From Nitrospinota bacterium (GTDB taxonomy: Bacteria > 2-12-FULL-45-22 > JACOWJ01), in assembly GCA_016176845.1 (NCBI GenBank), contig JACOWJ010000046.1, forward strand, positions 1 through 28,457: a stretch of 28,457 nt of DNA. The letters run 5' to 3'. Under the pieces are notes generated by a model that was not told the DNA's origin, did no database searches, and saw only the letters and a list, made by a program, of their open reading frames with translations. Position numbers and translations under genes: made by a program. Of this stretch, positions 501 through 20,915 are shown piece by piece (within the stretch, counting starts at the first letter, position 1; every line of letters begins with the position of its first letter).

Positions 501-818
501 ATGACCACCCCTGCGATCTCGCTGTCACCCGAACAGATCTCCGATTTCTGCCAACGCTGGAAGGTCCTTGAGCTTGCCTTGTTTGGATCGGTGCTGCGCG
601 AGGACTTTAGATCGGACAGCGACGTGGACATGCTGGTGACCTTCGCGCCGGATGCAGATTGGAGCTTGTTGGATCACGTACAGATGGAAGAAGAGCTCGG
701 CTCGATCATAGGACGCAAGGTAGATTTGGTCAGTCGGCGGGCCATCGAGCGCAGCGAAAATTGGATTCGTCGCCAGGAGATTCTGGAAACTGCCGAGGTA
801 ATCTATGTCGCGCGATGA
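501..818 (+). CDS. mntA: MNT-type nucleotidyltransferase (antitoxin of MNT-HEPN pair)
   Basis: This is a 105-residue minimal nucleotidyltransferase. The signature is clear: FGS at residues 28-30, then the paired metal-binding aspartates DVD (D41, D43), and a third acidic residue in KVDLV (D75). In the known MntA/HepT systems this protein is the antitoxin and adenylylates a tyrosine of the HEPN toxin. An AGGAGG ribosome-binding site at 488-493 sits 7 bases before the ATG. The gene overlaps the next one, which encodes the HEPN partner, by 14 bases, so the two are translationally coupled. Confidence 0.88.
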   Translation: MTTPAISLSPEQISDFCQRWKVLELALFGSVLREDFRSDSDVDMLVTFAPDADWSLLDHVQMEEELGSIIGRKVDLVSRRAIERSENWIRRQEILETAEVIYVAR

Positions 819-1158
819 CGCCACTCTGCTCGATATTGCCAAAGCCGCCAGGCTGGTTCTCGAATTTAAGCAGGGTTTCGATCGGATTGCCTTTCTAAAC
901 GACGCAAAGACTCAGTCAGCAATTCTCCATCAATTGCTGATTTTAGGAGAGTCGATAAAACGGCTCTCCGATGAATTTCGGGCTCGTCATCCTCAGATAC
1001 CCTGGCGGCTGATCGCTGGCATGCGTGACAAGCTGATCCACGATTATGATGACGTGGATCTCGATGAAGTGTGGCGGGTAGCGGAACGGGATATCCCGCA
1101 GTTGATTCAACTGATCGAACCGCTTTTGCCCACGCGAGGAAGGAATACCGATGATTGA
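805..1158 (+). CDS. hepT: HEPN-domain HepT-like ribonuclease toxin (DUF86)
   Basis: This 117-residue, mostly helical protein has the HepT signature RX4HXY as RDKLIHDY (R74, H79, Y81). The arginine and histidine form the RNase site, and the tyrosine is the residue AMPylated by the partner in characterised pairs. It overlaps the upstream MNT gene by 14 bases and the downstream second MNT gene by 8 bases, so all three are very likely one transcript. Its position between res and mod suggests an extra defence or addiction function carried by the restriction locus. Confidence 0.87.
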   Translation: MSRDDATLLDIAKAARLVLEFKQGFDRIAFLNDAKTQSAILHQLLILGESIKRLSDEFRARHPQIPWRLIAGMRDKLIHDYDDVDLDEVWRVAERDIPQLIQLIEPLLPTRGRNTDD

Positions 1159-1458: not shown

Positions 1459-1465
1459 ATTGAGT

Positions 1466-6454: not shown

Positions 6455-7612
6455 ATGACAGGTTCCGCAACCGCCCTTGCCGAATGGAGAGAGCAGGCCC
6501 AAGGCTTTCCGGAAAACCGTTTCATCCGAGAGTGGAAGGGCCAGGGGAGGAAGGTGATCGGCTGGGTCTGCATCTACGTCCCCGAGGAGATCATTTACGC
6601 CGCCGGAATGCTTCCTTACCGCGTTAGCGGCGACAACGAGGAGTTGGAGTTAAAGAAGGCCGAGTCCTTCCTTTACATCAACACCTGCTCCTTCGCCCGG
6701 ACCGGATTTCAGCTCGCCCTGGAGGGCCATTATGACTTCCTCGACGGGCTGGTGGCGGGAGAGACCTGCGATGGGGCCCGCCGCCTCTACGATGTCTGGC
6801 AGCGCAACCGGCCCCTGCCATTCATGCATGTCTACGGCATTCCCCGTAAGTTCATCGACCGTTCCGTAAGGATCTACCGGACGGACCTGGAGGAGCTCAA
6901 AAACCGGCTGGAGCTCTTTGCCGGAAGGGAGATCTCCCCCGAGCTCCTCCGGCAAGCGATCCAGGTTTACAACCGGGGCCGCCGTCTCCTGCGGGCGCTC
7001 TATGAGCTGCGCAAGATGGACCCTCCCCCCCTCTCCGGCGCGGAGGTCCTGGAGGTGGTCAAGGCCGCCATGCGGATGCCGCGGGACTCATACAACGCCC
7101 TCCTGGAGAGGCTGCTGGCAGAGCTCTCCGCCGGGAACGGCCCTCCCCAGCCCCCCTCAAAGATCCGGCTGATGGTGCTGGGGAGCATCCTCAACAACTC
7201 CCACTTCCTCCAGGGGATCGAGGAGGTGGGGGCGGCAGTAGTGACCGATGAGCTGTGCACCGGCACCCGGTACTTCTGGGGGGAAGTGGACGAGAGCCTC
7301 GACCCCATGGAGGCCTTGGCCCGGTACTACCTGAACCGGCCGCCCTGCGCCCGTTTCCAGCCCAATGACCGCCGGTTCGAGCACATCTTCCGGATGATCG
7401 AGGAGTTCAAAGTCCACGGGGTCATCAGCGAGATCGTCCGCTACTGCGTCCCTTACGGCCACGACAAGCCCTTCATCAAGGAGCGGCTCCAGCAACGCGA
7501 TCTCCCGGTGCTCGAGCTGGATTTGGAATATGGGTTGGGCCATTCCGGCCAGGTTCGGACCCGGGTGGAGGCCTTCATCGAAATGCTCAAGATCCGCCAT
7601 GGGATCGGTTAA
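6455..7612 (+). CDS. BcrC/HgdB-like 2-hydroxyacyl-CoA dehydratase / benzoyl-CoA reductase family subunit (pair 1)
   Basis: This 385-residue protein belongs to the superfamily that reduces benzoyl-CoA or removes water from (R)-2-hydroxyacyl-CoA by one-electron chemistry. Evidence is the opening KVIGWVCIYVPEEIIYAAGMLP, then YINTCSFAR (C78), GETCDGARR (C105) and YCVPYGHDKPF (C331), the likely [4Fe-4S] ligands. Length and order (short subunit first) match BcrC/BzdN next to BcrB/BzdO. A purine-rich GGGGGGAGGAGAAAG precedes the ATG, and the stop is 14 bases before the partner gene. A paralogue lies at 11795 with the same DPPPLSGAEVLEV segment. The substrate cannot be read from the sequence. The activating ATPase that such enzymes need is not encoded in this window. 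Confidence 0.87.
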   Translation: MTGSATALAEWREQAQGFPENRFIREWKGQGRKVIGWVCIYVPEEIIYAAGMLPYRVSGDNEELELKKAESFLYINTCSFARTGFQLALEGHYDFLDGLVAGETCDGARRLYDVWQRNRPLPFMHVYGIPRKFIDRSVRIYRTDLEELKNRLELFAGREISPELLRQAIQVYNRGRRLLRALYELRKMDPPPLSGAEVLEVVKAAMRMPRDSYNALLERLLAELSAGNGPPQPPSKIRLMVLGSILNNSHFLQGIEEVGAAVVTDELCTGTRYFWGEVDESLDPMEALARYYLNRPPCARFQPNDRRFEHIFRMIEEFKVHGVISEIVRYCVPYGHDKPFIKERLQQRDLPVLELDLEYGLGHSGQVRTRVEAFIEMLKIRHGIG

Positions 7613-7626
7613 GGAGGGGGAGGAAG

Positions 7627-8901
7627 ATGACCATCGCCAGGCTTCCGGAGGTACAAGACCTGATCGATCACATCGGTCGGCTGATCGAGGAGAAGAAGGA
7701 CGCGTATCAGTTGAAGTCTACCATTCCCTATATGCGGTTGATGACCCAATATTTCGAGCGCGCCGTCCGGGCCAAAGGAGAGGGGAAGCACCTGGTGGCC
7801 CATACCACCCAGTTGCCCGTGGAGATCTTCCACGCCATGGACGTAGTCCCCTTTTTCATCGAGACCTATTGTCTCTTCCTCAACTTCTTCGAGGACTTCC
7901 AGGAATTCCTGGGGATCGCCGCCGAGCACGGCATCCCCTCGGAGATCTGCTCCGTGCATCGGGTGACGGATGCCATGGTGATGACTGGAGCCTTTCCCCA
8001 GGCCGACTCCTTCGTCTTCTCCAACCTGGTCTGCGACAACACCCCCAAAGGCGGTGAGAGCATGGCCGAGCTCCTCAACCAGGCTCCCTCCTACTTCCTG
8101 GACCGTCCCTTCAAGCTCACCGCGCCCCACATGGCTTACTGGAAGGAGGAGCTGGAGGGATTGGTCAGCTTCCTGGAGGAGCAGACGGGACGGAAGATGG
8201 ACTACGACCGCCTCCAGGAGATGGTGCGGATCTCCTACCGGGCCACAGAGCTCTGTCAGGAGATCAATGAGCTCCGCAAGGCGGTCCCCGGCCCCCTGCC
8301 CGCCGAGGGGCTCTTCGCCCAGGCGGCCGTATACTGGCTGCTGGCCGGGCTGCCCGAGGCGGTTCAGTTCTTCGAGCAGCTGCGGGACGAGCTGAAGGAG
8401 CGGGTTTCCCAAGGGATCGGAGCCGTCCAGAAGGAACGCTTCCGCATCATCTATCCCTTCGTGGCCCCTTTTTGGGACATGGAGCTGATGGATGTGATGG
8501 AGGAGCGGTACGGGGCAGTGACGGTGATGGACCTGCTGGGACACTGGCGGGGCAAGGGAGAGTGGCTCGTCGATCCCTCCGACCCCCTGGGCAACCTGGC
8601 CCGCAAGAGCTCGGTCTTTCCCGGCAGCTTCCACCTCCATGGCCCCATGGAGGAGTACGTGGAGGATATGGTCCGGATGGGCCGGGAGTACCGGGCCGAT
8701 GGAGCGATCTTCTTCGCTCACATCGGTTGCCGCCAGGCCTGTGCCACCATCCGGGCCATCAAAGACGAGCTCCAAAGCCAGCTCGAGATCCCCATGGCCG
8801 TCATCGACTGCGACCTGGTGGATAAGGCCTTTACCTCCAGGAAAGAGGTCCTGGACAAACTGGACGGCTTCTTCGAGATGCTGGAGGAGCAAAAAAGGTA
8901 G
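7627..8901 (+). CDS. BcrB/HgdB-like 2-hydroxyacyl-CoA dehydratase / benzoyl-CoA reductase family subunit (pair 1)
   Basis: This 424-residue protein is the larger partner of the preceding gene. Family features are LPVEIFHAMDVVPFFIE near residue 63, cysteines in SEICSVHR (C108) and NLVCDNT (C136), and the C-terminal FFAHIGCRQACATIRAIKD (C368, C372) before IPMAVIDCDLVD. Three of these cysteines would hold the second [4Fe-4S] cluster facing the active site between the two subunits. GGAGGGGGAGGAAG runs directly into the ATG region, so the pair is coupled. It is paralogous to the gene at 12948 (both have EE.TG.KMDY.RL). Which acyl-CoA is used is unknown. Confidence 0.87.
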   Translation: MTIARLPEVQDLIDHIGRLIEEKKDAYQLKSTIPYMRLMTQYFERAVRAKGEGKHLVAHTTQLPVEIFHAMDVVPFFIETYCLFLNFFEDFQEFLGIAAEHGIPSEICSVHRVTDAMVMTGAFPQADSFVFSNLVCDNTPKGGESMAELLNQAPSYFLDRPFKLTAPHMAYWKEELEGLVSFLEEQTGRKMDYDRLQEMVRISYRATELCQEINELRKAVPGPLPAEGLFAQAAVYWLLAGLPEAVQFFEQLRDELKERVSQGIGAVQKERFRIIYPFVAPFWDMELMDVMEERYGAVTVMDLLGHWRGKGEWLVDPSDPLGNLARKSSVFPGSFHLHGPMEEYVEDMVRMGREYRADGAIFFAHIGCRQACATIRAIKDELQSQLEIPMAVIDCDLVDKAFTSRKEVLDKLDGFFEMLEEQKR

Positions 8902-8905
8902 GAGG

Positions 8906-8958
8906 ATTGGAAATTGGAAATTGAAAATTGAAAATTGGAAAATGAAAAATGAAAAATG
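8906..8958. repeat. A-rich tandem repeat (GGAAATTGAAAATT / GAAAAATGAAAAATG type)
   Basis: Short units of ATTGGAAATTGAAA and GAAAAATG follow the stop of the second dehydratase gene, inside the 174-base gap before the DUF1302 gene. A related GAAAAATG run lies at 22988-23012 after the response-regulator stop. Both sit just after a stop codon. They look like dispersed low-complexity repeats, with no sign of a gene. Confidence 0.65.
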
Positions 8959-9075
8959 AGTAGGAGAGGACGGAGCCGGAAAATCTGGGTTGATCCACGG
9001 ATGATCAAGGGAAGCCAGGCCGGTCAAGAGAGATGCGGGCGGAAGCCACACAGCGGAACAGAAAGAAGATAGGCG

Positions 9076-10578
9076 ATGGGATCTTTGAAAATGAAGCGGT
9101 TTTTCTTTTGCCTCTGGATTTTGATGGGTGCTCTTTGGGCGGTCAGCCCCGCAGGGGCTGGCTGGGACGAGCGCATCAGCCTCTTCGACCCGATTGGGCC
9201 TCTCTTCGACCCCCTGGAAGAGGCCGTCCCTGGTTTGATGGTCAAAGGAATGGCGCGCAATTGGACGCGCCTGGCCAGCCATGAGCGCACCCGTGACCCC
9301 AACCGTCAGGTCGGTTTCCATCGGACCAAGCGTTTCCCCTCCATCGAGTGGCTGGGCGAGTTGGAGCTGCGCTACCAGGCCACCCCGAACCTGGAGATCG
9401 TCAATATCAACAACTTCCTGTACGACTCGGCCTTCCGCTGGGACAGCGGCGGCCCCTATTCCCGCAGCACTCGGCGGGAGTTGGAGTATTACCACACGAC
9501 CGATCGCATCCTGCGAGAGCTTTACGCCGTCTATTATTACGGGGATATGCTGGACATCAAGCTGGGCAAGCAACAGCTGGTCTGGGGGAAGATGGACGGC
9601 AAGGTGATCGATATCATCAACCCCAGCGACAACCGCTACAGCCTGGCCAGCACCTCGGACAACTTCGAGTGGACCCGGGTGCCCCTCTGGATGGCGAACG
9701 TCATTTACACCTTTGGCGATTACTACCTGCAGTTGCTCTGGATCCCCGACTTCGAGCCCAACCGCAATCCCCCCCCGGACGGCCCCTTCCGCTCCATCTC
9801 GAAGCCCTCCCGGAGGTCCAGCATCCGCACGGTCAACTCCCTGCTCACCGGAGACAAGCCCTCGCAGAGCTTCTTGAACAGCGAGTGGGGCCTGCGGTTC
9901 AACCTGGTCAAAGGGCGCTGGGACTTGAGCTTCGTCTACTTCTACACCTGGAACGACGACCCTTTCCGCTTCCGGCGAGGGTTCGAGGAGACCCTCGACC
10001 TGGAAGGAAAGGTGGTCGAGCGGACCTTCTTCCTGGAGCCCAAGCATACCCGCATCCACCAATTCGGGCTGGACCTGGATCAGAGCTTTCAGCTGTTGGG
10101 GCGGAACATCCTGGTGAAGGGGGAGGCCGTCTACACCCTGAACAGCTACTTTCCCGTCGCGGGGGAGCCCCTCCGGGAGGACGGCGTCAAAAAGAGCAAC
10201 CAGCTTCTGGCAGCGGTCAACCTCGAGACCAGGTTCCGGGGAGAGATCACCGCCTCAAGTCAGTTGCAATTGCGCCACATCTTCGGGTACAATAGCCGCA
10301 TGCGTACCCTGGGTCGCCCACAGGAAAAGGACCGGCTGGACGTCATCTTCGGGGTCAACAAGCTCTTCAAGTTCACCGATAACCGGTTGGGACTCTTCTG
10401 GACCAACTATTACATCGACAGCGGTTCCTGGAAGGAACGATTTGACGTCAAGTACGCCCTCTCCGATTACGTGGACCTGATGGTCCGCTATTGGGCCTTC
10501 TGGGGAAATCATAACAGCGCTTACGGCATGTATAAGGACCGGGACGAGGTGGAGTTCTTCCTCAAATACGAGTTCTAA
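9076..10578 (+). CDS. DUF1302 family outer-membrane beta-barrel protein
   Basis: This 500-residue exported protein has a signal peptide (MKRFFFCLWILMGALWAVSPAGAG, cleaved near residue 29). The body shows alternating aromatic strands. The segment LRELYAVYYYGDMLDIKLGKQQLVWGK...DIINPSDNR (about 152-190) is the characteristic DUF1302 motif. It ends EVEFFLKYEF, with the terminal phenylalanine used by barrel-assembly machinery. DUF1302 genes typically sit beside DUF1329 genes, often with RND/MMPL transporters, and have been linked to handling of hydrophobic compounds; here DUF1329 follows after 99 bases. Its place between two dehydratase pairs suggests uptake or export of their substrate. ATG 9091 is an alternative start. 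Confidence 0.83.
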   Translation: MGSLKMKRFFFCLWILMGALWAVSPAGAGWDERISLFDPIGPLFDPLEEAVPGLMVKGMARNWTRLASHERTRDPNRQVGFHRTKRFPSIEWLGELELRYQATPNLEIVNINNFLYDSAFRWDSGGPYSRSTRRELEYYHTTDRILRELYAVYYYGDMLDIKLGKQQLVWGKMDGKVIDIINPSDNRYSLASTSDNFEWTRVPLWMANVIYTFGDYYLQLLWIPDFEPNRNPPPDGPFRSISKPSRRSSIRTVNSLLTGDKPSQSFLNSEWGLRFNLVKGRWDLSFVYFYTWNDDPFRFRRGFEETLDLEGKVVERTFFLEPKHTRIHQFGLDLDQSFQLLGRNILVKGEAVYTLNSYFPVAGEPLREDGVKKSNQLLAAVNLETRFRGEITASSQLQLRHIFGYNSRMRTLGRPQEKDRLDVIFGVNKLFKFTDNRLGLFWTNYYIDSGSWKERFDVKYALSDYVDLMVRYWAFWGNHNSAYGMYKDRDEVEFFLKYEF

Positions 10579-10580
10579 GA

Positions 10581-10646
10581 TAGCTCATAGCTCATAGCTC
10601 TATAATGGCTCACAGGCTTGAACTTTGAGCTATGAGCTACGAGCTA
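10581..10646. repeat. Inverted repeat of the AGCTCATA type (20-bp arms, one mismatch)
   Basis: The left arm 10581-10600 (TAGCTCATAGCTCATAGCTC) pairs with the right arm 10627-10646 with 19 of 20 matches. It fills the gap between the DUF1302 and DUF1329 genes and belongs to the same repeat family as 5125-5182. Confidence 0.75.
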
Positions 10647-10677
10647 ATCGCTTACTTCCCATGGAGGCGCGACGCTG

Positions 10678-11781
10678 ATGATCGGACGAAAATGGAGATC
10701 GACTCTGGGAGGGCTGCTCCTGGCCCTGTTCACCTATCCCGCCATCTCCTCCTCCGGCCAATGGGTCAATCCCAAGGAGGCCATCGGAGACCCCTGGGTG
10801 GCCCGGCTCCAGCAGGGCCGCAAGGAGCTCGCCCCGGGCGAGAAGGAGGACCTGGCCCGTTACGGCTACACGGGGCTGGAGCTGATGACCTATGCGGACT
10901 ACAACAGTTTTACGGGGGAGGATTACGACAACTTCTGGCGGATCGTCCATATCAGCCCTACCCGCCACATCCAGATCAAGCTCTGGGTGGAGCGGGGCAA
11001 ACACCTCTTCAAGCACTATCGCGACCTGTTGACCTACAACGGGCTCCAGCCGGATAGTGTCATCCTGAAGTTCCGGCTGATCTACTTCTATCCCCCGGCG
11101 CAATGGGGATGGGGGGTGACCAACTTCACCTACCTGCGATCCGAGGAGTTCGACAAGAAGTACCCCCGCAAAAAGACGGAGGCCTGGCGCTGGCTGCCCG
11201 ACCAGCGCAAGGTCTCCCGCGGGAGCAACAACGACCGGGCCGACCACTTCCAGGGGACGGAGATGACCCAGGATGACTTCCGCTGGCGACGCCCCTGGGC
11301 GGAGGATCACCGGATCCTGGGGGAGGACACCTTCGAGGGCAAGAGGTGTCTGGTGGTCGAGAGCGTCCACCATGACGCCACCTACTACCTGAGCAAGCGG
11401 GTGACCTGGATCGAGATGGAGCACTTCCTCGACCTGCACGAGGAGCAGTTCGACAAGAAGGGCCAACCCCTGAAGGTGATCGGCCGGCGGTGGCGGCAAT
11501 ACCAGCCCTGGGGCTATTGGGCCCGGGAGGAATGGGATGGGTACAACCTCCAGACCCAGGCCCGCACCCTCCTTCAGAAATACGATTGGCTCTACGACCA
11601 GGGCCTCTCGGAGGAGTTCTTTCGCGGAAGGGAGATGCGCAAGGAATACCACTGGCGCAGTCCCCGCCGGGATGCCATCCCCCCCATCCGGAGCCTCTCC
11701 GACCTAGCCCCCGTGCCAGAGATCCGGACAGCCTTCTGGGATCGTTTGGGGATCAAGCTGAGCCTGAAAGGGAAGGACTAG
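10678..11781 (+). CDS. DUF1329 family periplasmic protein (outer-membrane lipoprotein-sorting-like)
   Basis: This 367-residue protein has an N-terminal signal sequence (basic start, hydrophobic stretch to about residue 24, no lipobox cysteine). Family-type segments are NNDRADHFQGTEMTQDDFRWR, ILGEDTFEGKRCLVVES, then YYLSKRVTWIEMEHFLDLHEEQFDKKG. These resemble the LolA/LolB-like fold that binds lipids or other hydrophobic ligands. GGAGG at 10663-10667 lies 10 bases before the ATG. DUF1329 and DUF1302 are a recurring gene pair, and the order here is the usual one. Only 13 bases separate it from the next dehydratase gene, strong support that the outer-membrane pair and the enzymes share a transcript. 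Confidence 0.82.
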   Translation: MIGRKWRSTLGGLLLALFTYPAISSSGQWVNPKEAIGDPWVARLQQGRKELAPGEKEDLARYGYTGLELMTYADYNSFTGEDYDNFWRIVHISPTRHIQIKLWVERGKHLFKHYRDLLTYNGLQPDSVILKFRLIYFYPPAQWGWGVTNFTYLRSEEFDKKYPRKKTEAWRWLPDQRKVSRGSNNDRADHFQGTEMTQDDFRWRRPWAEDHRILGEDTFEGKRCLVVESVHHDATYYLSKRVTWIEMEHFLDLHEEQFDKKGQPLKVIGRRWRQYQPWGYWAREEWDGYNLQTQARTLLQKYDWLYDQGLSEEFFRGREMRKEYHWRSPRRDAIPPIRSLSDLAPVPEIRTAFWDRLGIKLSLKGKD

Positions 11782-11794
11782 AAAGGAAAGGAAA

Positions 11795-12916
11795 ATGGCC
11801 GACACCCGATTTACCGAGATCTTTGCCAATCGATACGCCCGGCTGAAGGAGCTCAAAGAGCAAGGAAAGAGGATCATTGGCTGGGTCTGCATTTACGTGC
11901 CCGAGGAGATCTTGCATGCGGCAGGCTTCCTGCCCATCCGGATCCTGGGCAGCGCCGACGAGACCTCCATCGCTGATGCCTACCTCTACTCCAACAACTG
12001 CTCCTTCGGCAAGAACTGTCTGGAGGACGCCTTCCAGGGCCACTACGACTCCCTGGACGGGATGGTGACCTGCAACTCCTGCGACGTCATGCGCCGCTTC
12101 TATGATATGTGGGAGATCTACCTGAAGACCCCCTTCACCCACATCATGACCGTTCCCTGCCGGGGCGACGAGTCGGTGGTGCCGGGCTTCCGGAACGAGC
12201 TGATGCGCTTCAAGGGAAAGCTGGAGGAGGCCTTCTCCCTGGAGATCCAGCCCGAGGCCCTGCGCGAGTCGATCGCCCTCTACAACCGGACCCGCCGGCT
12301 GCTGCGGGAGTTGTGGGAGCTGCGCAAGGCCGATCCCCCGCCCCTTTCGGGCGCCGAGGCCCTGGAGGTGATCCTGGCAGGGATGGTGATGCCCAAGGAG
12401 GAATTCAATCCCCTCCTGGAGAGCTACATCGGGGAAGTCCGGGCCCGCAAGGCGAGCAACGGCTCCGCCCAGAAGATCCGGCTCTTGCTGACCGGGCCCG
12501 AGCTGGCCGACCCCGGCTATGTCCGCTTCATCGAGGAGCTGGGGTCGGTGGTGGCCATCGATGACCTGAGCTGCGGGACGCGTTATTTCTGGGACCTGGT
12601 CGAAGAGGCGGGCGACCCCTGGGAGACCCTCGCCCGGCGATACGCCACTCGGCAGGCCACCTGCCCCCGGGTGCACCCGCAGGGCCAGCGGATCGAGCAC
12701 CTCAAGCAGCTCGCTCGGGATTACAAGGTGGAAGCGGTCATCGACTCGATCATCAAGTTCTGCGAGTCCCACGGGGGGATAACGCCCATCCTGAAAAGGG
12801 AGTTCGCCGAGCTGGGCCTTCCCATGCTTCACCTGGAGCGGGAGTACCAGATGGGAAGTAGAGGGCAATTGAGGACGCGGGTGCAGGCCTTCTTCGAGAG
12901 CCTGGATAGGGGCTAG
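11795..12916 (+). CDS. BcrC/HgdB-like 2-hydroxyacyl-CoA dehydratase / benzoyl-CoA reductase family subunit (pair 2)
   Basis: This 373-residue protein is a paralogue of the gene at 6455. Shared segments include IIGWVCIYVPEEILHAAGFLP and DPPPLSGAEALEV. Candidate cluster ligands are C69 (NNCSFG), C96 (CNSCDVMRR) and C323 (KFCESHGG). It differs from the first copy in having two extra nearby cysteines (C74, C93) and in lacking the PYGHD that follows the third cysteine there, so substrate or tuning may differ. AAAGGAAAGGAAA precedes the ATG. The partner gene follows after 31 bases. Confidence 0.86.
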   Translation: MADTRFTEIFANRYARLKELKEQGKRIIGWVCIYVPEEILHAAGFLPIRILGSADETSIADAYLYSNNCSFGKNCLEDAFQGHYDSLDGMVTCNSCDVMRRFYDMWEIYLKTPFTHIMTVPCRGDESVVPGFRNELMRFKGKLEEAFSLEIQPEALRESIALYNRTRRLLRELWELRKADPPPLSGAEALEVILAGMVMPKEEFNPLLESYIGEVRARKASNGSAQKIRLLLTGPELADPGYVRFIEELGSVVAIDDLSCGTRYFWDLVEEAGDPWETLARRYATRQATCPRVHPQGQRIEHLKQLARDYKVEAVIDSIIKFCESHGGITPILKREFAELGLPMLHLEREYQMGSRGQLRTRVQAFFESLDRG

Positions 12917-12947
12917 CCCCTAGCCCCTATTCTTAGGAGGAAGAACA

Positions 12948-14213
12948 ATGAGAGTGGAAGAGATGATGGAGAAGTTCAACAAGCGGGCGAAGTCCATGGA
13001 GCAGAAGGGAGAGATCAACAGCCGCTATTACCAGAACAAGACCCAGGCCGCTTATTTGCAGAAGGTCTTGGCGGCCAAGGACGAGGGAAAGCCCCGGGCC
13101 TGGGTCAGCCTGTTCGTTCCCACCGAGCTCTTCTGGGCCATGGATATCGTCCCCTTCGTGGTGGAGCAGTTCGTGATCCAGGTGCTCGCCTCTGGCGCAG
13201 GCTACCACTTCCTGGATGCGGGAGAGGCCTACGGCTTCCCCAAGGAGTCCTGCTCTCCCCACCTGGCCACGGTCGGGGCGGCCCTCTCGGGGACCCTCCC
13301 TCCGCCGGACGTGATGATCTGCTCCGGCCAGTCCCCCTGCGATTCGGCCTCCGTCATGTTCGAGAACCTGAGCTACGTCATGAAGAGCCCCATTCATTAC
13401 GCCACCGTCCCTTATTATCAGGGGCAGGAGGCCATCCAGGAGTTCAAAGAGGAGCTGAAGCAGCTGATCGCCTTCCTGGAAGAGACCACCGGAAATAAGA
13501 TGGACTACCACCGGCTGCGGCAGGCATTAGAAACCTACAAGGCGGCCCAGGAGTACTTCATCAAGTTTCATAAGCTCCGAAGCCTCATCCCATCCCCGGT
13601 GAATAACCGGACGGCTTTCGCCTCCTTTGGGATCGGCCTGACCTGCTCGGGAATGCCCGAGACGATCGATTTCTACCAGGCCCAGTACGAAGAGGCCCTG
13701 GCCCTGGCCGATCAGGGCAAAGGGGCGGCGGTAGAGGAGCGGCACCGGATCCTCTTCCACGGTCCTCCCCCCTTCTGGTATATGCGCCTGGTCGAATGGA
13801 TCGAGAAGGAGTATGGGGCGGTCATCACGGCGGATATCTTCAACCACTTCCCCTTGAATAACCTGGAGGATACCTCCGATCCCCTGGATGCCCTGGCCCG
13901 CCGGGCCCTGACCTGCTTCGGCGGGGCCCTGATGCATACGGCCCCCATCCGGGCCACGGCGAACTGGGCGGTGGAGGCCGGCAGGGAGTACAAGGTCAAC
14001 GGGGCCATCGCCACCACCCACTTCGGATGCAAGCAGGGCTGTAGCCGCACCCGGCCCATCGCGGATGGGCTGCGAAACGAGCTGGGCATCCCCGTCCTGA
14101 TCCTGGACATCGACGTGGGCAACCCCGCCATCGTCTCGGTCGCCCAGATGGAGCTCAAGCTGGACCAGTACTTCCGCGTGCTGGAGCAGCAGCGGGAGGC
14201 CCTGGCGGTTTAA
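12948..14213 (+). CDS. BcrB/HgdB-like 2-hydroxyacyl-CoA dehydratase / benzoyl-CoA reductase family subunit (pair 2)
   Basis: This 421-residue protein is the larger partner in the second pair. It shows WVSLFVPTELFWAMDIVPF (about 52-70), ESCSPH (C102), QSPCDSASVMFENL (C131) and the C-terminal THFGCKQGCSRTRPIADGLRNELGIP (C361, C365), followed by LILDIDVGNP. These are the superfamily positions for the [4Fe-4S] ligands. A strong TTAGGAGGAAG lies just before the ATG. It is related to the gene at 7627 but clearly diverged, so the two pairs are an old duplication or separate acquisitions rather than a recent copy. Confidence 0.87.
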   Translation: MRVEEMMEKFNKRAKSMEQKGEINSRYYQNKTQAAYLQKVLAAKDEGKPRAWVSLFVPTELFWAMDIVPFVVEQFVIQVLASGAGYHFLDAGEAYGFPKESCSPHLATVGAALSGTLPPPDVMICSGQSPCDSASVMFENLSYVMKSPIHYATVPYYQGQEAIQEFKEELKQLIAFLEETTGNKMDYHRLRQALETYKAAQEYFIKFHKLRSLIPSPVNNRTAFASFGIGLTCSGMPETIDFYQAQYEEALALADQGKGAAVEERHRILFHGPPPFWYMRLVEWIEKEYGAVITADIFNHFPLNNLEDTSDPLDALARRALTCFGGALMHTAPIRATANWAVEAGREYKVNGAIATTHFGCKQGCSRTRPIADGLRNELGIPVLILDIDVGNPAIVSVAQMELKLDQYFRVLEQQREALAV

Positions 14214-14215
14214 AT

Positions 14216-14233
14216 TAGCTCATAGCTCATAGC
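14216..14233. repeat. Single arm of the AGCTCATA repeat
   Basis: TAGCTCATAGCTCATAGC directly after the dehydratase stop matches one arm of the repeats at 5125 and 10581. No opposing arm is present nearby. Confidence 0.6.
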
Positions 14234-14267
14234 GGAAAAAGGAAATTCCTATACCTTCAAGTTAAGT

Positions 14268-14355
14268 TTTAAGTTTTAGGTGTTAAGTTTTAGGTTTCTT
14301 GCTTAACACTTAAAACCTGAAACTTAAAACTTTCCCGTAAATCCTGTCTAAAAAG
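14268..14355 (+). repeat. Left copy of a perfect 88-bp inverted repeat
   Basis: Bases 14268-14355 are the exact reverse complement of 17050-17137. The unit contains AAGTTTTAGGTGTTAAG and a near-complementary CTTAACACTTAAAAC, so each copy can also fold on itself (14 of 15 pairs). It ends with TCCTGTCTAAAAAG, 21 bases before the dehydrogenase start. A separate shared motif, ATAGGAATTTCCTTTTT, lies beyond the repeat here (in reverse) and abuts it at the other copy. Confidence 0.85.
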
Positions 14356-14376
14356 CGCGCGGCCCTGGAGGTGCGA

Positions 14377-15354
14377 ATGGATGGAAGACCGAAGGTCCTC
14401 ATCTCCCGGTCCATCCCGCAAGCCGCCCTCGAGATCGTGGCGCGGGAGTGCCAGGTGGAGGTCAACGAGCGCGACGTGCGCCTGACCCAGGAGGAGCTCA
14501 TCGAGAGGCTCCTGGAGAAGGAGGGCCTCCTCTGCCTCCTCACCGACCGGGTTGATGCCGCAGTGCTGGCCGCCGCGCCCCGCCTTCGGGTGGTGGCCAA
14601 CGTGGCCGTGGGGTACGACAACATCGATGTCGCCGAGGCCTCCCGGCGCGGGATCCTGGTCACCCATACGCCCGGCGTGCTGACGGAGACCACGGCCGAT
14701 CTCACATGGGCCCTGCTGTTGGCCGTGGCGCGCCGGGTGGTCGAGGCGGATCGCTACGTTCGATCGGGCCAATGGCGGGAGTGGGGGCTGCAGCTGCTGC
14801 TGGGGAGCGATGTCCATGGGAAGGTCCTGGGGATCTTAGGGTTCGGCCGGATTGGCCAGGCCGTGGCCCGCCGGGGGATGGGGTTCGGCATGCAGAACCT
14901 CTACCACAGCCGCCGCCGCGCCTCCCCAGAGGTCGAGGCCGCCTTGAAGGCTCGATACGTGGACCCGGAAACCCTCCTGCGGGAGGCGGACTTCGTCTCC
15001 CTCCACCTTCCCCTCACCCCAGAGACGACCCATTTCCTGACGGCCCGCGAGTTCTCCTGGATGAAGCCGACCGCTTACCTGATCAACACGGCCCGAGGGC
15101 CCATCATTCGCGAGGAGGACCTGGTGGAGGCCCTTCGAATGGGAAGGATCGCGGGGGCCGGGCTGGACGTCTACGAGCGAGAGCCCACCCTGGCCCCCGG
15201 GCTGACCGACCTCCCGAACGTGGTTCTGGCCCCCCATATCGGCAGCAGTTCCGTCGAGACCCGGACCCGGATGGCCGTGATGGCGGCGGAGAACTTGACG
15301 GCAGCCCTGGCCGGAAGGCGACCCCCCAATCCGGTCAACCCCGAGATCCCCTAA
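14377..15354 (+). CDS. D-2-hydroxyacid dehydrogenase (glyoxylate/hydroxypyruvate reductase type)
   Basis: This 325-residue NAD(P)-dependent enzyme reduces a 2-keto acid to the (R)-2-hydroxy acid, or the reverse. It shows VAVGYDNIDV, the nucleotide-binding GILGFGRIGQAVARR with GxGxxG, the catalytic arginine in INTARGPII, the glutamate in DVYEREP, and the histidine in APHIGSSS. The nearest characterised relatives are GyaR/GhrB-like glycerate dehydrogenases. I use ATG 14377 because the GGAGG at 14367-14371 overlaps the upstream GTG and is correctly spaced for this ATG. It follows four dehydratase genes on the same strand. An (R)-2-hydroxyacid is exactly what a 2-hydroxyacyl-CoA dehydratase route would need, so a pathway link is plausible. 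The stop shares four bases (CTAA) with the stop of the convergent next gene. Confidence 0.87.
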   Translation: MDGRPKVLISRSIPQAALEIVARECQVEVNERDVRLTQEELIERLLEKEGLLCLLTDRVDAAVLAAAPRLRVVANVAVGYDNIDVAEASRRGILVTHTPGVLTETTADLTWALLLAVARRVVEADRYVRSGQWREWGLQLLLGSDVHGKVLGILGFGRIGQAVARRGMGFGMQNLYHSRRRASPEVEAALKARYVDPETLLREADFVSLHLPLTPETTHFLTAREFSWMKPTAYLINTARGPIIREEDLVEALRMGRIAGAGLDVYEREPTLAPGLTDLPNVVLAPHIGSSSVETRTRMAVMAAENLTAALAGRRPPNPVNPEIP

Positions 15355-17024
15355 TCCAGCCCGATCCATTCGCCGGCGGGGATGAATTCCCTCTTTTGGA
15401 GATCGATCGCGACAATGTGGGCCCCCAGCGCCCCGATGCGCCGGTTCGGGCCATAGGTAATCCGCGGGCTCAATCCCGTGTCGAGCTCATACAGTCCCTC
15501 CAACGTCACGACCAGCTTTTCGCGACTCAGCTCCTTTCCGGCAAGTTTGAGTCCCTCCACCAGGATCTTTGCAGCGCAATAGGCGGAGATTTGGGCCGCA
15601 AGATGGCGTGTGGAGAGCCGATGCTTCTCGAGGAGAGCCCGGTATTCCATCACGCCGGCGGGAGTTTGATCGGAGGGAAGCGTGGGGTAGGCCAAATAAA
15701 TTTTCTCCTGGAAGCTCAAAGGAAGGTCGAAGATCCCCTTCCCGACCAGCGAGCCTGGGAGGAAAACATGGGGCGTCCATTTCCTCGTCGCCGCCTCCTT
15801 CATCCAGGCCTTTCCTTCCTCCCAGGAGCCCAAAAAGAAGACCGCGTTGGTGCCTCCCTGGCTCAATCTCTCGACGAGCGGGGCCGACTCGAGCCGGCCG
15901 GGTGGGTAAGGGATCCTTTCCAGCGGGCTCCATCCGGATTTCCTGCACTGCTCCTCGATCGCCTCCACCAGGTCCAGGGGAATCTTCGTCTCGGGGAATA
16001 CCAGCGCAGCCCGGGGGGCCTGGATTCGCAGCTTTCGCGCCGCAAAATCGGCCAGCGCGCGGCCCTGTTCCTTCAGGCCGGAGAAGACATAGAACAGGTA
16101 GCGGTTCAGGAGGAAGCTCCCCTCCGGGAAGAGGGTAAAGGGGCCCACCAAAGGGACCTCCTCGCCTTGGATGAGCGAGGCCATCTCCTGATCGGCTCCG
16201 GCGATCAAGGCCCCCACCAGGGCGAAGACCTCTTCCTTCTCGATGAGACGGCGGGCATTCTCCCGGGTTGCCGCTGCGGTATCTCCAGGCTCGGCTACTC
16301 GCAGCTCAATCTTACGGTGATAAATGCCGCCATGGGCGTTGATCTCGTCAAAATAGGCCGTCATCACAGCCTTCATCGCCTGCCCTATTTCCGCCAGCGG
16401 CCCTTTTGCCGGTAAGATCGTCCCCAGCCGGAGGCTGCTCTCCGTCAATCCCGGGTCCTGGTCTTCTCCGAGCCGTTTCAGGTAAGCGATCAGGTCGTCC
16501 AGGTCCTTTCGGGAGATGGAGTACCTGGGCATGGCGACGGCCAATGGGTTCCCGGCGGGATCGACACCGTCCGTGATCGCGCGCGCCATTGAACGGTCCG
16601 TGTAGGCGGGATGTTTTCGTCCGCTGGCGTGAGTGATCCCGTACGGTTTCGCCAACTGTTTCCAGGTAATATCGGAGGGGATGACGCCGCCCTCAGGCCT
16701 GCCCCGGCCGTCCGTTCCATGGCAGCCGGCGCAAGGCAGCGTGACAGCCGGCACTTCGCTCGAGGAATCCCCGATGATGGCTTGGATCGCCCCGCCGGAA
16801 GGGCTGCTCCCCTTGAGATAGATCTGCTTCCCCCGCCTTTCCTGGGGAGTCATCCGGCCCTCCGGGGAGGCTACCACGCGAAACCGCCATGACCGAGCAA
16901 AGTTGACCGCCCCCGGGGATAAAAATGGACTTTCGATAGACTTTGGGATTTTCACGATAAAAAAATCGAAAAGCAAAATCGCGGCGCCGGCCAGCAACCA
17001 GACCGCCAAACGTTGCGTCTTCAT
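15351..17024 (-). CDS. Cytochrome c domain fused to an ABC-type periplasmic binding protein
   Basis: This 557-residue exported protein has a hydrophobic N-terminal segment (about 6-26) acting as signal or anchor. Residues ~55-190 form a monohaem cytochrome c domain, with CAGCH (C98, C101, H102) as haem site and the likely axial Met in AVAMPRYS (M165), followed by DLDDLIAYLKRLG. From about 196 it is a Peripla_BP_6 (leucine/branched-chain amino-acid binding-like) domain: SLRLGTILPAKGPLAEIGQAMK, YFDEINAHGGIYHRKIEL, RENARRLIEKEEVFALVGALI, ending near QKREFIPAG. The fusion suggests ligand binding tied to periplasmic electron transfer. It is last in a minus-strand set with SCO and beta-propeller genes. 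No permease or ATPase gene is nearby, so transport is not indicated. Confidence 0.87.
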   Translation of the reverse strand: MKTQRLAVWLLAGAAILLFDFFIVKIPKSIESPFLSPGAVNFARSWRFRVVASPEGRMTPQERRGKQIYLKGSSPSGGAIQAIIGDSSSEVPAVTLPCAGCHGTDGRGRPEGGVIPSDITWKQLAKPYGITHASGRKHPAYTDRSMARAITDGVDPAGNPLAVAMPRYSISRKDLDDLIAYLKRLGEDQDPGLTESSLRLGTILPAKGPLAEIGQAMKAVMTAYFDEINAHGGIYHRKIELRVAEPGDTAAATRENARRLIEKEEVFALVGALIAGADQEMASLIQGEEVPLVGPFTLFPEGSFLLNRYLFYVFSGLKEQGRALADFAARKLRIQAPRAALVFPETKIPLDLVEAIEEQCRKSGWSPLERIPYPPGRLESAPLVERLSQGGTNAVFFLGSWEEGKAWMKEAATRKWTPHVFLPGSLVGKGIFDLPLSFQEKIYLAYPTLPSDQTPAGVMEYRALLEKHRLSTRHLAAQISAYCAAKILVEGLKLAGKELSREKLVVTLEGLYELDTGLSPRITYGPNRRIGALGAHIVAIDLQKREFIPAGEWIGLD

Positions 17025-17049: not shown

Positions 17050-17137
17050 CTTTTTAGACAGGATTTACGGGAAAGTTTTAAGTTTCAGGTTTTAAGTGTT
17101 AAGCAAGAAACCTAAAACTTAACACCTAAAACTTAAA
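17050..17137 (-). repeat. Right copy of the perfect 88-bp inverted repeat
   Basis: This is the exact reverse complement of 14268-14355. It fills the gap between the cytochrome-fusion gene and the SCO gene and supplies the last codons and stop of the SCO reading frame. Immediately outside it, at 17039-17055, lies ATAGGAATTTCCTTTTT, also found beyond the left copy. Confidence 0.85.
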
Positions 17138-17826
17138 TAATTTAAATCCCGGGCCCCCAGGATAAGCTCGAACATCCGGGACGGCGGCATCAGCCCGTAG
17201 GTGCGGGTCCATACTCCCCTGGCGTCGTTCCCGATGAGGACGGTGGGCGAGTGATCTTCTTTCCGGGCCACAGACGCGCGCAAGGCCCTTAGCAATTGAT
17301 CCATTTCCGGCTTTGGCCCCGTTACGAGCGTCCAACCTGGTTTCGCCTGAAACTTCTCTCCCCAGGCCTTGAGCCGCTCCGGGGTGTCGGTAATGGGGTC
17401 CACGCTGATGGAGATCAGGGTGAAATCTTTCCCCAATCGATCGCCTGCCAGCTCCTGAACCTTCGAGAACGTGGTCGCCAGCGGCGGACAGATCGTGGTG
17501 CAGGTGGTGAAGATGAAGTTGATGGCAACCACCTTGCCTTTGATCAGATCACTATAGAAGCGGATCTTCTTGCCGTCCTGGTTGAGAAGCACCAGATCCG
17601 GAATGGACATTTTCGCGGTTGCGGCCTCTTTTTGCGGCCCGGCTGTTGAGGATGGGCGCGGGTGCTGGTGGCCGCTGTGCGGATCCGCCGATGGCCCCGG
17701 CGGTTGAGCCGGCCGCTGGGTGGCGGTTTCGCCGGCATACAATGGGAGTGCCCAGGAAAATAGGCAAATTGCCGCCGCGCTGAGCAATAAATTCGCTTTC
17801 TTGGGATGGATTCGCTTCGCTCGCAA
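17119..17826 (-). CDS. SCO1/SenC-family thioredoxin-fold copper/redox protein
   Basis: This 235-residue exported protein has the SCO motif TTCTTICPP (C109, C113) and the distant metal-binding histidine in DHSPTVLIGN (H192), with ISISVDPITDTPERL between. A hydrophobic signal segment (LLLSAAAICLFSWALPLYAG) is followed by a Pro/His-rich linker DPHSGHQHP. Family members deliver copper to cytochrome oxidase CuA sites or act as periplasmic thiol reductases; no oxidase gene is in view. Both ends are unusual. The only upstream start in frame with the signal is a TTG at 17826, inside a copy of the dispersed TCGCTTCGCTCGCAATGA repeat, and the last six codons lie in the 88-bp repeat. The start may instead be an internal TTG near 17790. 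Confidence 0.82.
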   Translation of the reverse strand: MRAKRIHPKKANLLLSAAAICLFSWALPLYAGETATQRPAQPPGPSADPHSGHQHPRPSSTAGPQKEAATAKMSIPDLVLLNQDGKKIRFYSDLIKGKVVAINFIFTTCTTICPPLATTFSKVQELAGDRLGKDFTLISISVDPITDTPERLKAWGEKFQAKPGWTLVTGPKPEMDQLLRALRASVARKEDHSPTVLIGNDARGVWTRTYGLMPPSRMFELILGARDLNYLSFRC

Positions 17827-17830: not shown

Positions 17831-17864
17831 TATTCCCTATTCCCTATTCCCTATTCCCTATTCC
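17831..17864. repeat. Heptamer tandem repeat (TATTCCC, nearly five copies)
   Basis: Four full TATTCCC units plus a partial fifth sit in the short gap between the beta-propeller stop and the SCO start. The repeat covers the end of the propeller gene, where codon sense is AKE then stop. Copy number of such a tract could vary. Confidence 0.7.
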
Positions 17865-20098
17865 TTGGTTGCTTGCAAAATCAGGTAAGGCAGTTGGTTG
17901 AAGCGCACCCGCAACGAAGGGCACTCGAAAAAGATGTAATACACCCCGGGCTGGAGGACCGTGAAGGTCACTTCATAGATCCCGTCGCCGATCGACTGTG
18001 CCCAATCGCGGTTTTGCCAGGTGCCGGGGGCTAGAGATATCAGGACATGCACGTCTTTCAGCCCCATCTTGGGTTGGTTGGTGGTCGGATCGGTGGCCTT
18101 CAATTGCAAGCGCACATTTTCTCCCACGCGAATCTTCCTCTCTTTGAGCAACGGTTCGATTCGAAGGGCCACCTGTTTGCCTTTCTTCTTGAGCGCAGGA
18201 TTTGCCTTCACCGAAAGGTCGAAGCAGTGGAGGAACCGCGGAGCATCCAAAAGGAAGGCCACGTCGAATGTCCCGTCTTTGGCCAGCTTCACCTGGGTCG
18301 AATAGACGCCTGGCGTCGTCTCGCGAAGGCTTCGATCGATCACGCGGACCGCCTTGGGCTCGCGACGGTAATTTTGAAAACTTCCCATGGGGGCGGCCAT
18401 GCCCTCCGAGTAATAATAGATCATCTTGTCGGCTGGGTTTGCCACCAAGACGGAATTTCCTTCCGGCGTGGGAACGATCGTATCTGCCGCTCCGATGCCC
18501 GAAGACTTTTCGGGAGGAGCTTGCCCGCCCGGGAATTTGGTGACGGGCACGGTTCCGGCCTTGCCGAGGGCGTCCAGGGGGATCATGCTGACCTCCTCGG
18601 AGCCGGCCGATCGGATGTAGGCAAAACCCTTGGTAAAAGAGATCTGGTCCGGCCCTTTTCCGACCTCGACCGTCTGCAGGATGCGATGGGTGGATGGGTC
18701 GAAGATATGCACCACGCCCTCTTTCGAATTGGCCACCAGTCCCCAGCGACCGCTGGGGGTAAAGCGGATGGCCCTCAGGCCGGGCTTTGCCTGGATGCGG
18801 GTGGTGATCTCATGCCCCTGGCCATCCACCACCACAATGGCCCCGTCCCCCTCATGGACGACGTAAATCGCTTTGCTGAGGGCAGAAAAAGCCAGGGCCG
18901 TGGGGAGCGGCCCGGTCTGGATCTCTTTGATCTTTGCCAGCTTCTGCACATCGATCATCGAGAGGGTGCCCCCTTCCTTATTTGTGACGAAGACATAGCG
19001 ATCGTCGTCGGTGAAGGCGATTTCATGAGGGCCCGCCCCAGTCCGGATGCGAGCGACGACCTTCAGCTCGACCGGGTCGATGGCCGTCACGCCGCTCTCG
19101 GCTTTGGCGTCGCCGGCCGCATCGTTTCCCACCCCCTCGCGCCTTCGCGCCTTCGCGTCTTCGCGTGAGGCCTCGGCCTCTATGCTCCCCGCGGAATCGT
19201 TTCCCACCCAGAGATACTTCTCGTCCGGCTGGAAGGCCAGGCGGGTCGGCCTGGGTCCCCCATCGACATGGGCCACCACCTTCCAGGTGGCCATGTCCAC
19301 CACCGCAACCTGATTGGCCAGGGGCATGGCGACGAAGAGCCTCTTCCCGTCGCGGCTCAAGACCCAGTCCTCTCCCGGGTTTTTCAGCAGGACCAAGGTG
19401 TAAAGTTTGCTGCTGCCGAAACCCAGGAGGGGATCGATGACCGAGATATTGGGCTCGCGATTCAGGGCCAGGATGTAATAGGTATTCAGGTCGATCTCTG
19501 GGCGAGCCCTCAGGCTTCCCTGCATGAACGCCTGAACTTTTTGTTGACATGCCTTGGCCTCGGTTGCTTGACCTCCCGGCCTAAGGTCCATCCAGGCCGA
19601 GGGGTGGAGCCCCGTCATCGCCGTCCCGGTCGCGGTGTCGGTAATCTTGAATCGAACCACCGCATCTTCCCCTTCCTGGGGCTCCGCCGATTTGCCCTTC
19701 TCACCCACGACAGGCTCCAGGCTAAATTCGACCGCGATCCCTTCCTGGACGATCTTCTGCGGCTCGCGCGCCCGTTCGCCCCTCTTTTCCTCTTCAGGTT
19801 TTGATACGAAAATAGCCCCCACCATTTTAATACGCTTGGGTGCCCATGGGGCATGACCGGTTACCGTGAAAATGGCCGGGCCTTTCTGAAGGACTTTTTC
19901 ATCGGCGGTGCCGGCAAACTCTGCCTGGCCATGTCGGTTTAGGGCGCTTTGTTCCGGGCTGCCCCAGAGGAGATTCTGTCCCGCTAGGAGCAAAAACGCG
20001 AAGGCGAGAACCCAACGGATGGCTTTCCCATGCCTCCCCCGAGCTCTCATGGCCTGCTGCGGGTCAATCTTCTCGTTCAACGATGACTCCTTCAACAT
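17858..20098 (-). CDS. YncE-like beta-propeller (YVTN-repeat) exported protein
   Basis: This 746-residue protein has a signal sequence (AIRWVLAFAFLLLAGQNLLWG). The centre is a seven-bladed-propeller-type array of YVTN-like repeats: LFVAMPLANQVAVVDMATWKVV, YVFVTNKEGGTLSMIDVQKL, AIYVVHEGDGAIVVVDGQGH, GLVANSKEGVVHIFDPSTH. The C-terminal ~150 residues look like an Ig-like or FixH-like sandwich (GTFDVAFLLDAPRF to VYYIFFECPSL). Such propellers are often periplasmic partners of cytochromes or quinoproteins. ATG 20098 directly follows the stop of the HEPN gene; ATG 20050 (MRARGRHGKAIRW) gives a neater signal peptide. A 75-bp in-frame insertion lies between blades (19121-19195 region). It leads the operon with the SCO and cytochrome-fusion genes. 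Confidence 0.8.
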   Translation of the reverse strand: MLKESSLNEKIDPQQAMRARGRHGKAIRWVLAFAFLLLAGQNLLWGSPEQSALNRHGQAEFAGTADEKVLQKGPAIFTVTGHAPWAPKRIKMVGAIFVSKPEEEKRGERAREPQKIVQEGIAVEFSLEPVVGEKGKSAEPQEGEDAVVRFKITDTATGTAMTGLHPSAWMDLRPGGQATEAKACQQKVQAFMQGSLRARPEIDLNTYYILALNREPNISVIDPLLGFGSSKLYTLVLLKNPGEDWVLSRDGKRLFVAMPLANQVAVVDMATWKVVAHVDGGPRPTRLAFQPDEKYLWVGNDSAGSIEAEASREDAKARRREGVGNDAAGDAKAESGVTAIDPVELKVVARIRTGAGPHEIAFTDDDRYVFVTNKEGGTLSMIDVQKLAKIKEIQTGPLPTALAFSALSKAIYVVHEGDGAIVVVDGQGHEITTRIQAKPGLRAIRFTPSGRWGLVANSKEGVVHIFDPSTHRILQTVEVGKGPDQISFTKGFAYIRSAGSEEVSMIPLDALGKAGTVPVTKFPGGQAPPEKSSGIGAADTIVPTPEGNSVLVANPADKMIYYYSEGMAAPMGSFQNYRREPKAVRVIDRSLRETTPGVYSTQVKLAKDGTFDVAFLLDAPRFLHCFDLSVKANPALKKKGKQVALRIEPLLKERKIRVGENVRLQLKATDPTTNQPKMGLKDVHVLISLAPGTWQNRDWAQSIGDGIYEVTFTVLQPGVYYIFFECPSLRVRFNQLPYLILQATKE
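19121..19209. repeat. In-frame repeat insertion with 14-bp direct repeats, inside the propeller gene
   Basis: ATCGTTTCCCACCC occurs at 19121-19134 and again at 19196-19209, exactly 75 bases apart (25 codons). The 61 bases between carry GCGCCTTCGCGCCTTCGCG and TCTTCGCGTGAGG, units of a widely dispersed bacterial repeat. On the minus strand it reads ASREDAKARRREG flanked by VGNDSAG and VGNDAAG. The duplicated flank looks like a target-site duplication. Confidence 0.65.
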
Positions 20099-20509
20099 TT
20101 ATAAAAAATCCTTCACTTCATCAACAAATTCTTTAAAGTCTTCAATATTATTCAGCAACTCATATAATTTATCCATCTCAATAGAGATATATTCGTGAAC
20201 CAAAATATTTCTCAACCCTATCATGCTGACAAGCTTTGACGACAAACCTTCATGAATATAATGATATTTCATTAAAAACTCTATGCACTCAGAATAAGCA
20301 GTGGGATTCCCCAAATTATATTTGGCAACTATATGACATGCTATATCAATAATTATTTGGATACTCTCTAAAAAACCATATCTTAATGCCCACTCTTTGG
20401 ATTTATCAGAACGAACATCCGTTAGACTAAATCTTTTTTTAAATTCTAAAAGCTCTCGTATATTATTCTCAAGTAGCTTAAGTCTCTCAAACAAAATTAT
20501 GTTCTCCAA
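20099..20509 (-). CDS. hepT: HEPN-domain HepT-like toxin (AT-rich module 1)
   Basis: This 136-residue helical protein has the HepT motif RNILVHEY (R100, H105, Y107), the RNase residues and the tyrosine that is AMPylated in studied systems. It overlaps the upstream MNT gene by 23 bases, and its TAA directly abuts the ATG assigned to the beta-propeller gene. Base composition is strikingly AT-rich against its GC-rich neighbours, and codons favour A/T endings, a sign of acquisition from another genome. Confidence 0.86.
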   Translation of the reverse strand: MENIILFERLKLLENNIRELLEFKKRFSLTDVRSDKSKEWALRYGFLESIQIIIDIACHIVAKYNLGNPTAYSECIEFLMKYHYIHEGLSSKLVSMIGLRNILVHEYISIEMDKLYELLNNIEDFKEFVDEVKDFL

Positions 20510-20915
20510 ATTTACCTTTATTTAATCTGTCTTTGAATGTTTTATTAATCATGTCCCTCATCTTCTTTGTATCCATAAAATATAATAAAGCATTTTTCTT
20601 AAAATCTATAAATTTATTTTCATTTATACAGAATAATATCTTGTTACTCGATACTATCTCATAAGCTATCACAGGATTTTTTTTATATAGATTATTCAAA
20701 ATCATTAAATCGACTTTTATTTTGAGGATTGATTCAAGATTTGCTGTCAAAAATCCTATTTCCAATAGAGAAATGTCTTTATTCGTAAAAATCCCTATAT
20801 CCACATCACTGAGATTATGCGCCCTGTTTTCTGCATAAGAGCCAAAAAGTAGAGCAAAATCAATAAAATCAAACCGCTGAAGGTAGTTCGCAGAAAGGCC
20901 TTCTACTGCCGACAT
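20487..20915 (-). CDS. mntA: MNT-type nucleotidyltransferase antitoxin (AT-rich module 1)
   Basis: This 142-residue protein has the minimal nucleotidyltransferase signature LLFGSYAENRAHNLSDVDIGIF: G25-S26, then D37 and D39, with a third acidic site in IKVDLMIL. It is the expected antitoxin of the overlapping HEPN gene. It is long for an MNT antitoxin; the extra C-terminal ~50 residues (ENKFIDFKKNALLYF onward) are Lys/Asn-rich and helical. No strong ribosome-binding site is visible before the ATG. Confidence 0.85.
   Translation of the reverse strand: MSAVEGLSANYLQRFDFIDFALLFGSYAENRAHNLSDVDIGIFTNKDISLLEIGFLTANLESILKIKVDLMILNNLYKKNPVIAYEIVSSNKILFCINENKFIDFKKNALLYFMDTKKMRDMINKTFKDRLNKGKFGEHNFV

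Follow-up and report, generated by a model that had tools for sequence, protein, structure and literature searches.

Two HGD-D enzyme pairs around DUF1302 and LolA-superfamily genes: a recurrent block and a candidate reductive route for hydrophobic compounds in a Nitrospinota genome

Why should genes for two pairs of HGD-D enzymes, relatives of the class I benzoyl-coenzyme A (CoA) reductases (BCRs), surround genes for an outer-membrane barrel and a periplasmic protein? The question is raised by seven genes of a Nitrospinota bacterium, found in a stretch of 28,457 nucleotides (JACOWJ010000046.1 of assembly GCA_016176845.1; hereafter the window) that is the entire contig C36 of G000, a metagenome-assembled genome of 1.53 Mb and 68% completeness. 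All on the forward strand, these genes specify a short, BzdN-like HGD-D subunit (S1, 6455..7612), a long, BzdO-like one (L1, 7627..8901), a DUF1302-type outer-membrane β-barrel with a signal peptide-like N-terminus (9076..10578), a periplasmic protein of the LolA_like/DUF1329 superfamily (10678..11781), a second short and a second long subunit (S2, 11795..12916; L2, 12948..14213) and a glyoxylate-reductase-like D-2-hydroxyacid dehydrogenase (14371..15354). A sequence-only reading had described this order, on a single strand and with 13 bases between the LolA_like gene and S2, and in all these respects it was correct. It had further proposed an outer-membrane-to-cytoplasm system for a hydrophobic or aromatic acid, possibly working via a 2-hydroxyacyl-CoA. 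The arrangement of two HGD-D pairs around the barrel and LolA/DUF1329-superfamily genes is real and recurrent; the chemistry most likely differs from that proposal.

All four pair subunits belong to the PF06050 HGD-D family, scoring 205-338 bits against a cut-off of 28.4 (E of roughly 1e-60 to 1e-100: 9e-101 for S1, 6e-61 for L1, 1e-95 for S2 and 2.5e-60 for L2). None of them reaches the cut-off of the NCBIfam models for BcrB/C, BzdN/O, HadB/C or the double-cubane reductases, the top scores being 185 bits for BzdN (cut-off 454), 75 for BzdO (449), 177 for HadC (700) and 84 for HadB (750). The best match of both short subunits is the double-cubane model (260 bits for S1 and 225 for S2; cut-off 350). 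Hence the earlier label of "BcrCB-like" holds at the level of the superfamily and fails at that of the family, and since every subunit falls below the equivalog cut-offs, no substrate is assigned to the pairs. Among solved proteins, BzdN is nearest to both short subunits (E 3e-55 and 2e-56) and outranks HadC. We computed one tree for 44 short subunits and one for 53 long subunits, with BzdNO, MbdNO, HadBC and DCCP as the only references. The sole comparison genome from the same order is G001 (3.7 Mb), the remaining sampled genomes sharing only the domain. One clade (A) unites the first window pair with a pair on G001:C81 (67% identity for the short and 59% for the long subunit) and the second pair of another contig of G000, C14; the other (B) unites the second window pair with G001:C300, the first C14 pair and C19. 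For the window pairs, the short-subunit tree agrees with the long-subunit tree, the pattern that co-evolving heterodimers would give. Thus, the four subunits are not scattered over unrelated clades but form two clearly delimited groups among the BzdN/DCCP-type proteins. The wider HGD-D complement of the order (29 matches in G000 and 67 in G001) also includes BzdNO-like (G001), MbdNO-like (G000), HadBC-like and DCCP-like (G001) members.

The potential cluster ligands were mapped by aligning the subunits onto the residues of the BzdNO structure (PMC11971306). In that enzyme the [8Fe-9S] double cubane is ligated by Cys36/73/100/263/293/327 of BzdN, and the [4Fe-4S]-OH2 site consists of Cys95/128/380, Glu65 and His131 of BzdO (PMC11971306). 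S1 has all six double-cubane cysteines in place (C39, C78, C105, C268, C298 and C331), and S2 has five of the six in register (CCCSCC), with the equivalent of C263 displaced by one residue (DDLSCGT). The long subunits present cysteines at the three [4Fe-4S]-OH2 positions (C108, C136 and C368 in L1; C102, C131 and C361 in L2) and retain the equivalent of Glu65, with His131 replaced by Thr in L1 and by Ala in L2 and Trp46 of BzdO replaced by Gln or Phe. Given that neither His131 nor Trp46 is conserved, benzoyl-CoA itself is an unlikely substrate. The window pairs share with BzdNO (PDB 8s02) the two-subunit HGD-D organization, the double-cubane cysteines of the short subunit (one of them displaced in S2) and the three cysteines plus Glu65 of the long one. 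They differ from it in their modest identity (31% for the short and about 22-23% for the long subunits), in the two lost residues, in having no linked activase comparable to BzdPQ, and in lying outside the BzdN/O clades, for which G001 has separate members at ~50% identity. The ligand pattern of HadC is PCCACC, with no Cys at BzdN positions 36 and 263. The presence of the double-cubane cysteines in S1 and S2, and the absence of the full set from HadC, favors a reductase over a dehydratase, albeit not conclusively. From these sequence features, we consider the pairs most likely to be low-potential, class-I-BCR-like acyl-CoA reductases rather than 2-hydroxyacyl-CoA dehydratases.

The barrel protein was rightly assigned to DUF1302 by the sequence-only reading (PF06980, E 1.6e-14, 54.2 bits against a cut-off of 23.2), and its structure model, of moderate confidence (pLDDT, the per-residue model score, 67), resembles porin barrels such as the Campylobacter MOMP and the Occ/Opd channels (best E 3e-12). 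Its neighbor had been called DUF1329, a label that survives as a superfamily statement: it matches PF17131 LolA_like (E 9e-26, 91.1 bits against a cut-off of 30), and its model (pLDDT 62) matches LolA3 (9tp6), 3bk5 and the DUF1329 protein 4z48. With only 15.4 bits to PF07044 DUF1329, against a cut-off of 23.1, a true DUF1329 identity was rejected. A scan of viral contigs found no relatives of the LolA_like protein. The tie of DUF1302/DUF1329 proteins to hydrophobic compounds, invoked earlier, is borne out by published cases. In Pseudomonas putida PP_0765/PP_0766 are needed for growth on Tween20 (PMC10866462), the Castellaniella relatives AmeA/AmeB are part of monoterpene metabolism (PMC6394551), and in a benzene-degrading culture a DUF1329 protein is highly expressed along with YCF48 and MMPL genes (PMC13101534). 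The window genes resemble the P. putida and Ame systems and the ORM2a "Nanopod" cluster in combining an outer-membrane barrel with a LolA/DUF1329-superfamily protein, and by this analogy the pair might function in import. They depart from the DUF1302/DUF1329/YCF48/RND clusters in that the periplasmic protein is LolA_like by Pfam, HGD-D enzymes lie on the flanks, and the block lacks an RND transporter or YCF48 (these occur elsewhere, for example on G000:C35 and C60). Indeed, classical RND/YCF48/DUF1302 sets are separate in both G000 and G001; the RND/YCF48 set of G001:C5 adjoins UbiD-like genes.

The gene order is not unique to this contig. On G000:C14, a second block comprises an MFS gene, a clade-B pair, a fused double CaiB CoA-transferase, a DUF1329/LolA gene, a DUF1302-like gene, a LolA_like gene (41% identity to that of the window), another MFS gene, a URO-D gene and a clade-A pair. 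Pfam does not recognize the DUF1302-like protein, which was instead picked up by a profile of the window family (E 6e-100). Hence, on both C36 and C14 the DUF1302 and LolA_like genes are bracketed by an A pair on one side and a B pair on the other, with the two sides exchanged, and both clade-A pairs of G000 are located in such blocks, each with a clade-B pair. In G001, contig C148 carries in one run another short-long pair, a DUF1329 gene and a LolA gene (49% identity) with a convergent DUF1302 fragment, and C43 has a DUF1329-like gene a few genes away from a pair of the BzdNO type. HGD-D pairs are therefore linked to DUF1302/LolA-superfamily genes repeatedly within the order, a linkage that is seen in two genomes and is so far confined to the order. 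Conservation of the full block across the lineage was considered and excluded: S1-like short subunits (E 1e-85 or better) occur in just 6 of the 386 sampled genomes, G000 and G001 included, and are not linked to DUF1302 outside the order. A recent duplication of the whole block between C36 and C14 was likewise rejected, as the A members, and likewise the B members, of the two blocks are each closer to other proteins.

We give an even chance to the idea that the block specifies a lineage-specific route for a hydrophobic compound, in which two double-cubane-type heterodimers reduce its CoA thioester after uptake. By analogy with the characterized relatives, the DUF1302 barrel in the outer membrane and the LolA/DUF1329-superfamily carrier in the periplasm would handle the incoming compound. 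In the cytoplasm, the two different BCR/HAD-family heterodimers would then perform difficult low-potential two-electron reductions of what may be a common substrate. The short subunit would store electrons on an [8Fe-9S] double cubane, while in the long subunit the [4Fe-4S]-OH2 cluster would be the site of acyl-CoA reduction, the Glu donating the proton. Electrons would come from ferredoxin via BadF/BcrA-type ATPases encoded elsewhere in the genome. Activation is probably ATP-dependent: G000 has four BcrAD_BadFG genes above the cut-off, all outside the window, and the pair-1 orthologue on G001:C81 adjoins two more. That the block combines an enzyme of clade A with one of clade B points to two reductions, either successive or position-specific. 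Of the original proposal of an outer-membrane-to-cytoplasm system, the recurrent linkage and the literature on hydrophobic compounds thus uphold the general outline; the 2-hydroxyacyl-CoA route, judged against the double-cubane cysteines of the short subunits and the loose linkage of the dehydrogenase, finds no support.

Several observations weigh against this reductive route. The intergenic gaps of 174, 99 and 157 bases would allow several transcripts, and promoter and terminator scans gave no clear unit boundaries; the window itself has no gene for an activase, CoA ligase or CoA transferase. The shifted ligand of S2, the loss of the catalytic His131 together with Trp46, and the lack of the distal cysteines in MbdN, a subunit of an accepted aryl-CoA reductase, all complicate the picture, and the last of these means that the reaction type cannot simply be read off the ligand pattern. 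In the trees, the clade-A and clade-B members of C36 and C14 are not mutual closest relatives. Outside the order, the S1-like genes (G025, G033, G172 and G310) lie beside BadF activases or acyl-CoA enzymes and not DUF1302, and four genomes (AUK140, CSMAG_2437, CSMAG_3040 and NC_groundwater_1425) have adjacent LolA_like and DUF1302 genes with their HGD-D genes on other contigs. The last point, together with the LolA-DUF1302 pairs of G001:C191 and C75, which also have no HGD-D neighbor (in part owing to short contigs), raises the possibility of chance proximity, in which some HGD-D copies of a crowded genome have come to lie beside a generic pair for envelope or hydrophobe handling. The 29 and 67 matches in the two genomes make this conceivable, yet just 7% of the bases of G000 have an HGD-D match within 3 kb, whereas 3 of the 7 close LolA_like loci of G000 and G001 adjoin HGD-D pairs (rough chance ~0.02 at an assumed 8.5%). 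The consistent pairing of A and B in both blocks also speaks against it, as does a fourth LolA_like gene on G000:C21, two genes downstream of a BadF-type activase; we regard chance as rather doubtful.

The terminal dehydrogenase bears on the chemistry. It was correctly recognized as a D-2-hydroxyacid dehydrogenase, matching PF00389 and PF02826 with the catalytic triad R242, E269 and H289 present, and its score to NCBIfam PRK13243 (397 bits, cut-off 455), like that to all equivalogs, is below the cut-off, so that no substrate is assigned. Were it to supply (R)-2-hydroxyacids, the pairs could be 2-hydroxyacyl-CoA dehydratases, as in the Had/Fld systems. They share the superfamily with the 2-hydroxyisocaproyl-CoA dehydratase HadBC (PDB 3o3m), along with the fold, the three-Cys long subunit and, as in HadB, the missing active-site His131. 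Moreover, a 50% identical dehydrogenase lies near LolA/DUF1302 genes on G001:C75, and a 39% identical one adjoins an HGD-D pair on G001:C169. On the other hand, HadC lacks the two cysteines at positions 36 and 263 that S1 and S2 retain (the one-residue shift in S2 aside), the HadB and HadC model scores are far under their cut-offs, both short subunits score higher with BzdN than with HadC, and the C14 block has no such dehydrogenase; a dehydratase role hence appears distinctly unlikely. The dehydrogenase, which follows L2 after the 157-base gap, may be an accessory enzyme, possibly the last gene of the block, or an unrelated neighbor. It is even less probable that the pairs, like DCCP (PDB 6eno/7yyl), turn over small molecules free of CoA, with the outer-membrane genes serving another purpose: the double-cubane model is the top match of S1 and S2 and the six-Cys pattern is held in common, but DCCP is a homodimer from a single gene in a clade of its own (with a 48% relative on G001:C93), whereas the window enzymes have two unlike subunits, the long ones with BzdO-type three-Cys sites, and the loci on C14 and C21 have CoA-transferase genes next to them. 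Double-cubane acyl-CoA reductases remain our preferred reading.

Some relatives of these enzymes may use selenocysteine (Sec). An in-frame stop interrupts 4 of the 96 HGD-D frames of G000 and G001; all four are TGA and all four replace a cluster-ligand Cys codon. One is a short subunit with the TGA at the position of BzdN Cys100 (L010:8941, on G000:C14), and three are long subunits with the TGA at that of BzdO Cys95 (L059 3047-4339 on G001:C148, L072 6642-7889 on G001:C53 and L073 5211-6518 on G001:C231). Random errors are an unlikely origin (rough chance 5e-9 under uniform placement), and both genomes have SelB and tRNA-Sec. Folding of the Sec insertion sequence (SECIS) is weak on its own and hints at Sec in just two of the genes (z of -2.8 and -2.2), the other two having z of ~0 and -0.8. 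We consider these four paralogues as candidates for a Sec-ligated cluster; the genes of the window itself have Cys. Several LolA_like genes also have an in-frame TGA (L069:3560-4639; L070:3520-4716; L060:3256-4344 on G001:C191). The proteins of L069 and L070, 71% identical and from different genomes, have it in common, and the TGA column of the G001:C191 protein is Cys in L068, L069 and L070. With tRNA-Sec detected in the L069 and L067/L070 genomes, the LolA_like proteins are candidates for a new selenoprotein family. The selenoproteome papers searched, of 2016, 2022, 2025 and 2026, included neither HGD-D nor LolA_like and did include DUF523, which we take to be the TudS family. TudS is a single-domain relative (PMC11971306). 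One could go further and picture a dedicated system of this order, spanning outer membrane and cytoplasm, for a hydrophobic compound that resists degradation and might be polycyclic or alicyclic. Two different double-cubane reductases would work in series, and in some paralogues Sec, as a ligand of the catalytic or the double-cubane cluster, would tune the potential; as a whole we hold this to be unlikely.

Beyond the block, a gene on the reverse strand (15351-17024) runs toward the dehydrogenase gene, with a 4-base overlap at the stop of the latter; its product joins a cytochrome c motif (CAGCH) to a substrate-binding domain of the Peripla_BP_6 type. An SCO1-like gene (17119-17826) and a β-propeller gene (17858-20098) come after it. 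MNT-HEPT-type (HepT-like/nucleotidyltransferase) gene pairs occur at 20099-20915 (reverse strand) and 24904-25744 (forward strand), and probably also, as judged by sequence only, at 501-1158 (forward strand). At the contig start (1-3796), an N6_N4 DNA methylase (1460-3796) stands behind the tail of an apparent restriction-type subunit, possibly the remnant of a type III restriction-modification system.

In terms of the biology of the family, the ligand patterns would shift the functional reading of such pairs from dehydration toward double-cubane acyl-CoA reduction. Double-cubane reductases operate at potentials close to the limit of biology, and BzdNO has been termed the first of them with a defined catabolic function (PMC11971306). 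The order, with 67 HGD-D matches in a single genome, is an unusual reserve of unassigned relatives, for which the linkage to outer-membrane and periplasmic genes provides a first hint of the substrate class. The Sec candidates, if real, would amount to Cys-to-Sec variants of the [4Fe-4S]-OH2 site made by nature, and through them one could directly test what cluster ligation contributes to Birch-type chemistry.

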